Positions 1 through 48,790 of a stretch of 48,790 nt of DNA are shown here, piece by piece. The stretch spans positions 1 to 48,790 of the forward strand of contig CALUTK010000003.1 of the NCBI GenBank assembly GCA_944323675.1, given 5' to 3'. Position 1 is the first letter of the stretch. Each line of letters begins with the position of its first letter. A program made the translations under genes and the position numbers. Source of the stretch: Candidatus Gastranaerophilales bacterium (GTDB lineage Bacteria; Cyanobacteriota; Vampirovibrionia; Gastranaerophilales; Gastranaerophilaceae). The notes under the pieces were generated by a model that was not told the DNA's origin, ran no database searches, and was given only the letters and a program-made list of their open reading frames with translations.

Positions 1-360
1 CAAAAAAAAAAGAAAAAGTGAACATACCTGAAAGAATGTAAACTTACCCCTCACCCGAATTTCTAAGCTCACTAAAGCTCGCTAAGAAATTCCTCCCTCT
101 CCCTCAAGGGGCGAGGGAATATGATTTACATCCCTTGTAAAGGAATTTGGGGTGTAAGCGCCGGAGGGTTTTCTCTTTTACCCCTCACCCGCCCTTCGGG
201 CACCCTCTTCTGTCTTGGATTTACTCCATGCTCACGGAGTGTCGCTTACGAGCTTACGCTCTGCCGGCTCCATCCGTTCGCTATCCGGACTTACTTCGTT
301 CCGTCCGTCCGTAAATCCGCCTCAAGAGGCGAGGGGATATGATTTGCCTTCCTTATAAAT
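1..360. repeat. Non-coding repeat-rich region at the left edge
   Basis: No gene is supported here. The stretch is made of short imperfect inverted repeats: GAATTTCT near 57-64 faces AGAAATTC near 86-93, and GGATTTAC near 219 faces GTAAATCC near 311. A module ending CCGGAGGGTTTTC occurs at about 130-176 and again at 346-391. Related copies lie at 29804-29846 (plus) and 35435-35490 (minus). The apparent reading frames follow the repeat units and have no ribosome-binding site, so I treat them as chance. Confidence 0.7.
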
Positions 361-635
361 GGAGGTGGCGCCAAGCGCCGGAGGGTTTTCATGCGAGCGT
401 GCGGCGTAACCGCGATGGCGAGTGAAGTAGTGAAAAAATTTCTAAGATCCTGAAACAAGTTCAGGATGACAGAAATTTTTTCACACTTCCATTTGATTCC
501 GCGGCGCGCAGCGACGCTGTAAACGATTGTGTTTTTCTCTTTCTTTGGTTCGTTTCTTTCTCTTTTAATCGCAATAAAAGAGAAAGAAATGAACACACAA
601 GAATAGACTAGTGCCTCTTGCACATTAGTCTGTTC
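361..635 (-). repeat. Dispersed composite element, copy 1 (minus orientation)
   Basis: Read on the minus strand, this copy runs from the terminal hairpin (601-635), through the TTTCTTTCTCTTTTA stem-loop, a GC-rich CGTCGCTGCGCGCCGCGG segment, a TCATCCTGAACTTGTTTCAG hairpin and a TCGCCATCGCGGTTACGCCG-like tract, to the CCGGAGGG module. The same order is seen at 35222-35490 and 48546-48790. Its stem-loop has loop TTGCGAT in element orientation. Nothing in it looks coding. It begins 7 nt past the stop codon of the transporter gene. Confidence 0.85.
601..635 (-). terminator. Stop-proximal hairpin, likely terminator of the 643-1959 gene
   Basis: The arms GAATAGACTA and TAGTCTGTTC pair with one mismatch, and an inner GTGC/GCAC pair extends the stem. 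It lies 7 nt past the stop codon and is followed on the minus strand by the moderately T-rich TTGTGTGTTC. The same hairpin, with compensatory changes, recurs at 2001-2035, 35732-35769 and 48546-48580. A terminator role is inferred from position; the U-tract is weak. Confidence 0.5.
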
Positions 636-642
636 CTTTACC

Positions 643-1959
643 TTAGAACAAATACGCCGCGAGTATTGCAAAGATTATGAGCGGAATATTAAAATGTAAA
701 AAGGTAGGAATACAGGTATCTTTAATGTGGTTATGCTGACCATCAGCGTTTAAGCCTGCTGTAGGTCCGAGAGTCGTATCAGATGCGGGAGAACCGGCAT
801 CTCCTAATGCTGCTGCAGAAGATAAAATTACAACGCTCGCAGGTACAGAAAGCCCTAAATGAGCACAGACAGGAATAAACAAAACCGCAAGTATCGGAAT
901 GGTTCCGAAAGAGGTTCCTATTCCCATCGTGATGAATAATCCGATAAAAAGCATTAAGCTTACTGCAAGCAGTCTGCTGTTTTGCATAAAAGGAAGAATT
1001 GCATGAATAAGGGTATCAATTCCGCCGGTTGCCTTCAATACCATTGCAAACCCTGCCGCAACAAGCATTACAAAAGCAACATATCCCATTAATCCAATCC
1101 CTTCATTTATAAGGTTATCCATTTTCCTGTGGCTTACAGCGCCGCCGCCAAACACAATTCCAAGCCCGACAAGTGCGCCAAGCGGCAGTGATTTCGTCAA
1201 AAGCTGGACGATTAATGTTGCGAATGCGCCGATAAGTGTAATATAGTGGTTTTTATTTAATTTTAAAGCCTGCGCGTCCTCTTTTTCAATTTCATTTTCA
1301 ACAGGCTGAATGTCGTTATATTCACGAGGTTTCCTGTATGAAATAAGGATTGCAACCAGAAGTCCCGCAAGCATACCGAGTCCTAAAATCCAGTTTGCTT
1401 TCCATACATCATTTTTTAAAACAGTCATTCCATTGACTGTCATATTTTCCGCAATTAAGCCCTGAAAAATTAATCCAAATCCGGCAGGTATTGCAATATA
1501 AGGAGCCTTCAAACCAAATGCCAGTGAACACGCAACCGCGCGTCTATCAAGTTTAAGCTTATTCATTACATGCAAAAGAGGTGGAATAAGTATAGGTATA
1601 AATGCAATATGAACAGGTATAAGGTTCTGTGAAAGAATTGCAATCCCTGTCAAAATTGCAAGAAGTAAAAACTTTTTGTCCTTAATAACTGTTGAAATCT
1701 TTTTTGCAAGAATTGTCGCTAACCCTGTATGCGTCATTGCCGCGGCAAAGGTTCCGAGAAGTATATAGCTTAATGCAGTTTCCGAATTATCACCCATGCC
1801 AGAGATAAATGTCTGCATAACTTTTTCTACAGGAAGCCCGCCTATTAGTCCTGCCGCAATTGCAGAAATAATTATTGCAAGTAAGACATTAATCCTGCAA
1901 ACACAAAGCACGCATAATAAAATTACCGATACAACTACGGGATTAAATATAATATTCAT
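643..1959 (-). CDS. Na+/H+ antiporter-family transporter (YuiF/NhaC-like)
   Basis: This 438-residue, very hydrophobic protein has about a dozen predicted membrane segments in two similar halves. The first half carries GMGDNSETALSYILLG (55-70) and SQNLIPVHIAFIPILIPP (110-127). The second half carries GIGTSFGTIPILAVLF and GDAGSPASDTTLGPT (about 386-400). These are hallmarks of the YuiF-type branch of the NhaC/IT superfamily, whose members exchange Na+ for H+ or carry amino acids; the substrate cannot be read from sequence. The start is supported by TGATACTAT ending 6 nt before the ATG with no Shine-Dalgarno, which predicts a leaderless mRNA. The gene stands alone, bracketed by two outward-facing copies of a dispersed repeat element. 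Confidence 0.85.
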   Translation of the reverse strand: MNIIFNPVVVSVILLCVLCVCRINVLLAIIISAIAAGLIGGLPVEKVMQTFISGMGDNSETALSYILLGTFAAAMTHTGLATILAKKISTVIKDKKFLLLAILTGIAILSQNLIPVHIAFIPILIPPLLHVMNKLKLDRRAVACSLAFGLKAPYIAIPAGFGLIFQGLIAENMTVNGMTVLKNDVWKANWILGLGMLAGLLVAILISYRKPREYNDIQPVENEIEKEDAQALKLNKNHYITLIGAFATLIVQLLTKSLPLGALVGLGIVFGGGAVSHRKMDNLINEGIGLMGYVAFVMLVAAGFAMVLKATGGIDTLIHAILPFMQNSRLLAVSLMLFIGLFITMGIGTSFGTIPILAVLFIPVCAHLGLSVPASVVILSSAAALGDAGSPASDTTLGPTAGLNADGQHNHIKDTCIPTFLHFNIPLIIFAILAAYLF

Positions 1960-35221: not shown

Positions 35222-35499
35222 ATTGCTATATGTTCATTTCTTTCTCTTTTATTGCGTATTAAAAGAGAAAGAAATGAACCAAAGAAAGAGAAAAACGCAA
35301 TCGTTTACAGCGACGCTACGCGCCGCGGGATCAAATGGAAGTAGTGAAAAAAATTCTGTCATCCTGAACTTGTTTCAGGATCTTAGAAATTTTTTCACTA
35401 CTTCACTCGCTATCGCGGCTACGCCGCACGCTCGCATGAAAACCCTCCGGCGCTTACGCACCACCTCCCTTATAAGGGAGGTGAGGGAAATTTAGAATT
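35222..35499 (+). repeat. Dispersed composite element, copy 3
   Basis: The stem arms here are a perfect 20 bp (GTTCATTTCTTTCTCTTTTA and its complement) around TTGCGTAT. The GC-rich tract, the TCATCCTGAACTTGTTTCAG hairpin, the CGCGGCTACGCCGCACGCTCGC tract and the CCTCCGGCGC module follow, ending at a perfect 22-bp palindrome centred on TTATAA (35462-35483). The module at 35500-35553 that follows also occurs at 2316-2370. Confidence 0.9.
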
Positions 35500-35550
35500 G
35501 CCGTAGGCAGGTTGCCGAACGTGCACGAAGTGTAATAGTGAGGCTGAAAG

Positions 35551-35769
35551 GTTAAATGCGTTAGCATTTAACGGCATCCATTCGGTCTTGCGCTGCGAAG
35601 CAGCGCTATTTTATAGCGTGTTTCTTTTTCTTGGCTGACATTCTTTTTAAGCTTGCTTGCCCGTTTAACGGCGGCAAGCTTAAAAAGAATGTCAGTGCAG
35701 GGTATGGGGCTGCACAAGCCCCATATAATAAGAATAGCCTAGTGCAGCATCTTGCGTACTAGGCTGTTC
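35551..35769. repeat. Array of consecutive perfect hairpins
   Basis: Six hairpins lie in 220 bp: GTTAAATGC/GCATTTAAC (35551-35572), GCGCTGC/GCAGCGC (35590-35606), CGCTAT/ATAGCG (35604-35618, sharing bases with the previous one), a 22-bp perfect stem (35635-35656 with 35674-35695), TATGGGGCT/AGCCCCATA (35703-35725), and GAATAGCCTAGT/ACTAGGCTGTTC (35732-35769, one mismatch). No gene is present. The last hairpin lies three bases after the anmK stop codon. Confidence 0.85.
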
Positions 35770-35771
35770 CA

Positions 35772-36902
35772 TTAAATGTTTGTAATTTTGCCGAGAATAA
35801 CTCTTTTTTTTGCGCCGGTGCATTCCGGAAGGTTATTAGGAATGCCGTAATATGTGCAGTAACCTAAAAGTGCAAATGCCATAACTTCTTTAAAGTTGTT
35901 TGAAATCCCGTAGTCTTCATGCGTTTTTATATTAATATGTTTTGGCAGATAGTGCCGCAGGAACTTCATAAGCGCAGGATTATACGCTCCGCCTCCGCCA
36001 ACAATAACCTCTTCAAGTTCAAGCTTCGGATAGATAAATCTTTCGTAAGACTGAGCAATGGTTTTTGCCGTAAGTGCCGTAACCGTCGCCACAATGTCTT
36101 CAGGTTCTTTCGGTGCAAACCTCAGAGCCGTATCAATATACATAGGTGAAAAATATTCTCTCCCTGTAGTTTTTGGCGGATTTTTGAAGTAATAATCGTC
36201 CTGCAGCAAACAGTCCATCCAGCTTTCGCAAATTTTTCCGGAATTTGCGGTTTCTCCGTCCATATCAAAGGTTCTGCCAAATAGTTTCATCATGCAGTAA
36301 TCTATGATTACATTTCCGGGGCCTGTATCAAATCCGTAGGTTTTATGTGAATTTGAAATTACAGTTACATTAGAAATGCCGCCGATGTTTTGGATTGCAA
36401 CATTCTTTTTCAACTTTTTAAACCATTTTTCATCAGCAAAACAAACTAAAGGCGCCCCTTCTCCGCCGTTCGCAATATCAGCTTCCCTGAAATTGGATAT
36501 AACATTACAGCCTGTTTCTGCCGCAATAACAGAACTTTCTCCTATTTGGAGTGTGCTTCTTAATTGAATGCCGTCTAATTTTTCTTTTTTAGGTGAATGG
36601 AAAATTGTTTGTCCGTGGCTTGCAATAAAATCCGGTTTTCCGTGTTCTGATATTAAAACGTTACAAGCATCAGCAAAACATTTGCCGACAGCAAAATTCA
36701 TCTGGCAGACATCTTTTACGGTTGCCTCACCGGAAAAGAGTCTGAAAATTTTTGCTCTTATATGATCAGGATATTGAAAGTTTATACCCTGAACAAGTTT
36801 GCAGGTCATATCAGGTTCGACTATGCATAAACCTGCATCAATGCTGTCACACGATGTCCCTGACATTAAGGCTATAATCTTTTTGCTTTTTAATTCGTCC
36901 AT
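35772..36902 (-). CDS. anmK: Anhydro-N-acetylmuramic acid kinase
   Basis: Phosphorylates and opens anhydroMurNAc released from the cell wall, feeding MurNAc-6-phosphate back into amino-sugar metabolism. The 376 residues begin with ALMSGTSCDSIDAGL (11-25), the family signature, with ASHGQTIFHSP, GGISNVTVI, GFDTGPGNVIIDY and VVGGGGAYN further on. Length is normal. There is no clear Shine-Dalgarno before the ATG; TAAAAT lies nine bases upstream, so a very short leader is possible. No murQ is adjacent. A repeat hairpin lies just after the stop. Confidence 0.93.
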   Translation of the reverse strand: MDELKSKKIIALMSGTSCDSIDAGLCIVEPDMTCKLVQGINFQYPDHIRAKIFRLFSGEATVKDVCQMNFAVGKCFADACNVLISEHGKPDFIASHGQTIFHSPKKEKLDGIQLRSTLQIGESSVIAAETGCNVISNFREADIANGGEGAPLVCFADEKWFKKLKKNVAIQNIGGISNVTVISNSHKTYGFDTGPGNVIIDYCMMKLFGRTFDMDGETANSGKICESWMDCLLQDDYYFKNPPKTTGREYFSPMYIDTALRFAPKEPEDIVATVTALTAKTIAQSYERFIYPKLELEEVIVGGGGAYNPALMKFLRHYLPKHINIKTHEDYGISNNFKEVMAFALLGYCTYYGIPNNLPECTGAKKRVILGKITNI

Positions 36903-48534: not shown

Positions 48535-48545
48535 AATTCATAAGG

Positions 48546-48580
48546 GAATAAAATAGTGCGCAAAAGTCACTAGTTTATTC
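48546..48580 (+). terminator. Stop-proximal hairpin, likely terminator of flhB-fliA
   Basis: GAATAAAATAGTG pairs with CACTAGTTTATTC (one mismatch), starting 11 bases after the stop and followed by TTGTATGTTC. It is the fourth copy of the hairpin seen at 601-635, 2001-2035 and 35732-35769, with changed base pairs in the stem. Confidence 0.5.
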
Positions 48581-48790
48581 TTGTATGTTCATTTCTTTCT
48601 CTTTTATTGCGATTAAAAGAGAAAGAAACGAACCAAAGAAAGAGAAAAACGCAATCGTTTACAGCGTCGCTGCGCGCCGCGGAATCAAATGGAAGTGTGA
48701 AAAAATTTCTGTCATCCTGAACTTGTTTCAGGATCTTAGAAATTTTTTCACTACTTCACTCGCTATCGCGGCTACGCCGCACGCTCGCAT
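48581..48790 (+). repeat. Dispersed composite element, copy 4 (runs off the window)
   Basis: Same order as copy 3: the TTTCTTTCTCTTTTA stem-loop with loop TTGCGAT, the GTCGCTGCGCGCCGCGG tract, the TCATCCTGAACTTGTTTCAG hairpin and the CGCGGCTACGCCGCACGCTCGC tract. The sequence ends before the module boundary, so its right end is not known. Confidence 0.9.

Follow-up and report, generated by a model that had tools for sequence, protein, structure and literature searches.

What are the closely spaced hairpins that lie next to anmK in a genome of Candidatus Gastranaerophilales (Melainabacteria), and what keeps their stems so regular? The question arises from a window of 48,790 nucleotides, which is the whole stretch of DNA analysed here, and in which an earlier note had described six consecutive perfect hairpins at 35551-35769 as a possible structured RNA, a repeat cluster or a strong barrier at the end of anmK. 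The source organism is close to the MAG CALVBD01 and to Ca. Scatousia. Our analysis identifies the array as one copy of a composite palindromic element of the Gastranaerophilales, dispersed, non-coding and MITE-like or foldback-like, which probably evolves by hairpin template switching.

The five perfect stems of 9, 7, 6, 22 and 9 bp that had been described are all present, and the second and third exclude each other because both use 35604-35606. Only the sixth hairpin (35732-35743 with 35758-35769) is not perfect, as 11 of its 12 positions are paired. The 22-bp stem, which had been singled out as exceptional, is the longest perfect stem (loop 3-20) of the whole window. Three perfect stems of at least 9 bp were observed in the 219 bp first described, whereas 200 dinucleotide shuffles contained 0.015 on average. 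These hairpins constitute the right half of a larger unit that extends left to 35229 (window 35229-35774), for which the minimum free energy is -261 kcal/mol versus -152 +/- 7 kcal/mol in shuffles (z = -15), so that chance does not explain the stems. The features of this unit are listed below; no strand is assigned to them.

35229-35774: whole repeat copy with a class B-like right end and no recognisable left terminal repeat, homologous to L020, L022, L026 and others from 35229 on
35232-35279: left-end hairpin with a 20-bp perfect stem (35232-35251/35260-35279), which covaries between copies
35283-35299: left strand of the backbone stem, AAAGAAAGAGAAAAACG, pairing with 35616-35632 according to fold and covariation
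35339-35403: left variable side hairpin with the GTCATCCTGAAC..GTTTCAGGATC module; other copies have TTGAAGGC-N3-GCCTTCAA here
35462-35483: central 11-bp palindrome
35514-35545: conserved asymmetric core, the basis for defining orientation
35551-35572: right variable side hairpin (GTTAAATGC..GCATTTAAC), the first hairpin of the earlier note, with a 9-bp stem (35551-35559/35564-35572)
35590-35618: second and third hairpins of the earlier note, mutually exclusive, with stems of 7 bp (35590-35596/35600-35606) and 6 bp (35604-35609/35613-35618)
35616-35632: right strand of the backbone stem, GCGTGTTTCTTTTTCTT
35635-35695: right-end hairpin with the 22-bp perfect stem (35635-35656/35674-35695), its right arm a reverse-complement copy of the sibling left arm
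35703-35725: tail hairpin with a 9-bp stem (35703-35711/35717-35725)
35732-35769: terminal (T2) hairpin, a class B end
35772-35774: anmK stop codon, which the class B right end abuts

The suggestion of a repeat cluster proved to be right: what lies beside anmK is a single copy of a composite repeat with a dispersed distribution. When it was sought elsewhere in the genome and in relatives, as had been proposed, a 241-bp query gave 36 matches at no fewer than 18 places in the organism's own 1.8-Mb genome, and copies were found in related species of the same genus and of one further genus. Separate modules occur in 107 of the 286 genomes of the order, representing 21 of 50 genera. The copies are non-coding, 390-1160 bp long and intergenic at the sites examined. 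No match to the element was obtained in the phage records searched, and no published description of it was found in the literature searched, which does not prove that none exists. Four copies lie within the window, the one beside anmK and the following:

1-657, minus strand: second copy, cut by the contig end
1974-2397, plus strand: third copy, left part only
48539-48790, plus strand: fourth copy, left part with the T2 left end CATAAGGGAATA, cut by the contig end

Both contig ends, which are also the window ends, are thus located inside element copies, suggesting that the assembly probably breaks at this repeat.

The order of modules is common to the copies: a left-end hairpin is followed by the backbone strand AAAGAAAGAGAAAAACGC, by a first variable side hairpin and by a stretch with many small hairpins; then come the core CCGAACGTGCACGAAG, another variable side hairpin and the opposite strand of the backbone (GCGTGTTTCTTTTTCTT), and a right-end hairpin and a tail hairpin close the series. 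This shared interior is enclosed by one of two kinds of terminal inverted repeats, namely class A ends, CATAA..TTATCGGAA plus its complement, or class B ends, which are T2 hairpins (CATAAGGGAATAG..CTATTCCCTTATG). The side hairpins on the left are matched by counterparts on the other side, several copies match their own reverse complement (66-69% over ~346 bp), and whole copies fold as a single large hairpin bearing side hairpins. The outer modules also occur alone, as is evident from a solo class A end (L231) and from a solo T2 hairpin of ~55 bp in G005 (L241, with ends CATAAGGGAATAG..CTATTTCCTTATG), the orthologous site of which in G011 (L122) has a full element.

The side hairpin at 35345-35398 contains a GTCATCCTGAACTTGTTTCAGGATC module that recurs, also in reverse-complemented form, both in further copies and in certain intergenic regions elsewhere. 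In addition, other intergenic hairpins, of the GTTCAGGAT type, are present at sites without the element (L207, L208 and L237), and further palindromic repeat families therefore seem to exist in the group.

Occupancy of orthologous sites differs between species. Between anmK and the neighbouring gene the whole unit is absent in the more distant relatives L039-L042, L044 and L046, and a related but rearranged unit is found at the same junctions in L037, whose AnmK is 97% identical. The simplest reading of these alignments would be that the element was already inserted when the window species and L037 diverged, and was rearranged later. As the orthologous loci of the more distant relatives are devoid of the element and copies are found beside many unrelated genes, a barrier as proposed for the end of anmK would not be specific to that gene. 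Nor was a decay of the stems without compensation seen in relatives, which had been named, together with a missing transcript, as a refutation; either the stems of different copies show compensation or the element is missing as a whole.

The loops of conserved stems are found in both orientations. In detail, the ratios of forward to reverse-complemented loops are 11:8 for AAA/TTT (in TTGAAGGC-AAA/TTT-GCCTTCAA), 9:3 for AGA/TCT, 14:3 for GAA/TTC, 16:3 for ATA/TAT and 19:2 for GTCA/TGAC, where copies and not independent events are counted. Hardly any intermediate loops exist, and such a one-step reversal is the product expected of template switching between hairpin arms (PMC8794818, PMC8604942). 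Published work attributes to template switching the homogenisation of inverted-repeat arms together with the inversion of their spacers (PMC8604942), and the formation of perfect stems along with inverted loops (PMC8794818). Sibling copies carry the left arm CTGACATTCTTTTTAAGCTTGCTTGCCGCCGTTAAACGGG and a mostly different right arm, and the 36-nt right arm plus loop of the window copy is the reverse complement of this sibling left arm except for one 4-nt unit. The right arm of the window copy is found in no other copy, so the 22-bp stem is private to it and is best read as the result of a private arm-copying event.

Whole elements are reversed as well. Eight sites have both flanks matched in at least two species, and at five of them the orientation is opposite between species (L027 versus L125 and L141; L029 versus L134 and L137; L030 and L123 versus L152; L117 versus L135; L130 versus L143), while at three it is not. 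These data come from MAG assemblies, for which assembly error at repeats is a caveat, and several separately assembled genomes agree. The flanks are conserved up to the terminal repeats, and after inversion two pairs of copies are colinear over their full length (99.8% for L027/L125, 95.9% for L130/L143). At rpsI-hydE, two species share 99.8% identity in the element and 93-97% in its flanks, a pattern that points to recent homogenisation or transfer more than to simple descent. Because the interior is here more similar than the flanks, inversion in place is indistinguishable from an exchange for a different copy.

Just outside the terminal repeats, TATAAT-like words are present (e.g. L027:797-830), in the first 25 bp of 29 out of 53 flanks compared to 15 out of 53 for the next 25 bp; the AT content is also higher there. 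Judging from these motifs, the element ends may sit in promoter regions.

The array could be an ordinary IS-derived MITE that is mobilised in trans by a transposase, in which case the hairpin features would be by-products. Terminal inverted repeats around a short non-coding body are indeed found, and the small size, the missing coding capacity, the intergenic position and the AT-rich flanks agree with this. However, direct target-site duplications were seen neither next to the listed class A copies nor at the empty rpsI-hydE sites, a search limited to Y1_Tnp revealed no such transposase in the genome, and in the other-genus copies examined the paired ends enclose no frame of transposase size. 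Since a target duplication was looked for and not found, the element is regarded as MITE-like in plan and not filed as a MITE, and we consider mobilisation as an ordinary IS derivative rather unlikely. Bacterial MITEs (PMC10969869) are likewise short, non-coding and intergenic, with terminal inverted repeats and a very stable predicted fold, but for the element described here neither a target-site duplication nor a parental IS was found, its interior consists of nested covarying hairpins, and whole copies exist in both orientations at one site.

Compared by published descriptions, the pneumococcal BOX and the Neisseria NIME (PMC3049150, PMC3898611) are also modular, dispersed, intergenic and stem-loop forming with variable internal modules; they typically measure less than 200 bp per element, whereas the present element measures 390-1160 bp, is palindromic overall and has dif-like or T2 ends. 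REP/BIME repeats with RAYT transposase are palindromic intergenic repeats too, but the element is much longer, and membership in this class was rejected as no Y1_Tnp protein was found in the genome (~95% complete). An autonomous transposase-bearing parent was sought in 20 stretches with module matches in relatives and none was found. Integron attC sites were discarded as well: GTTAAAT/ATTTAAC resemble core sites but their order is wrong, and only XerC/XerD-like recombinases were above the cut-off.

The class A ends raise the question of whether the host XerC/XerD might recombine them as inverted dif-like sites, thereby flipping and perhaps moving the element, an activity that could operate alongside template switching in the small hairpins. 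The class A consensus, TCTTCCGATAA-CATATW-TTATGT, resembles pdif sites such as GCTTCGTATAA-GGTGTA-TTATGTTAATT (PMC13141974), 18 of 25 copies have the same 6-bp spacer at either end, and of full tyrosine recombinases only two were found in the genome, both XerC/XerD-like. The lack of any visible target duplication and the differing orientation between species are in line with such a role. On the other hand, class B ends, which like the window copy do not show the dif-like core, are also inverted (L030/L152, L117/L135), conservation is poor in the outer portion of the XerD-like arm, and the dif site of the genome itself was not identified, as a loose pattern gave no clear single site. Xer dependence is unlikely in our view. 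In Acinetobacter plasmids, inversion between pdif sites has been shown (PMC13141974). The Acinetobacter modules resemble the class A copies in that segments found inverted are flanked by dif-like sites of inverse orientation, commonly with the same 6-bp spacer; those modules have been described on plasmids and carry genes (PMC13141974), whereas our element is non-coding, lies on chromosomal contigs and lacks the site in class B copies. It is improbable that the copies represent a novel class of nested palindromic elements, chromosomal and non-coding, which would exploit the host XerC/XerD via inverted dif-like ends, flip in place and so maybe switch neighbouring promoters, with hairpins renewed by template switching at every scale.

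A conserved structured RNA, regulatory or abundant and non-coding, with stems kept by selection on the transcript, would account for the extreme folding energy and for the compensatory changes, which affect both sides of 7 out of 17 pairs in the right-end hairpin (n = 19) and appear as double changes in 22 out of 111 pairs of whole copies (n = 16). The plus strand also folds slightly better, with 640 G-U pairs versus 542, and the long-range backbone stem includes G-U pairs, so that some constraint at the RNA level may be present. But the right-end hairpin shows neither one-sided changes nor G-U intermediates, both strands fold about equally (mean difference 4.5 kcal/mol), the orientation relative to flanking genes varies between species, modules come and go, and an Rfam search gave sub-threshold hits only and no family at the gathering threshold, all of which makes the structured RNA that had been proposed as the cause of the stems very improbable.

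Taken together, the lack of G-U intermediates in the right-end hairpin, the nearly equal folding of both strands, the two-way orientation of loops and of whole elements, and the copied arm argue for evolution at the DNA level and not for selection on RNA. For template switching in hairpin DNA, we envisage that the element would fold while single-stranded, most simply at the replication fork, and that DNA synthesis would then switch template between the hairpin arms. One arm could be recopied from the other, which would keep stems perfect and could have made the 22-bp stem of the window copy; alternatively, the segment between the arms would be inverted, at any size between a 3-nt loop and an entire element. 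The element would spread by some activity, possibly that of the host XerC/XerD on dif-like ends, and a benefit for the host would not be needed. An extension to all scales is opposed by the fact that the cited spacer inversions comprise a few bases and whole elements ~460-800 bp; large inversions may therefore need another mechanism, either site-specific recombination or replacement by a copy of opposite orientation. Template-switch footprints in hairpins (PMC8794818, PMC8604942) share arm homogenisation, compensatory multi-base changes and loop inversion with our element, but they were described at small scale in RNA genes and yeast coding genes, whereas here a multicopy element is concerned, possibly up to its whole size. 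The unusual feature is that stem homogenisation, loop inversion and whole-element inversion occur together.

The presence of compensated stems is usually taken to indicate a functional RNA, and the element is therefore a warning for covariation-based RNA discovery. Should its dif-like ends be in use, it would extend the Xer-exploiting elements of gut bacteria by a non-coding kind. As a multicopy element, it provides a natural record of hairpin DNA perfecting and inverting itself.
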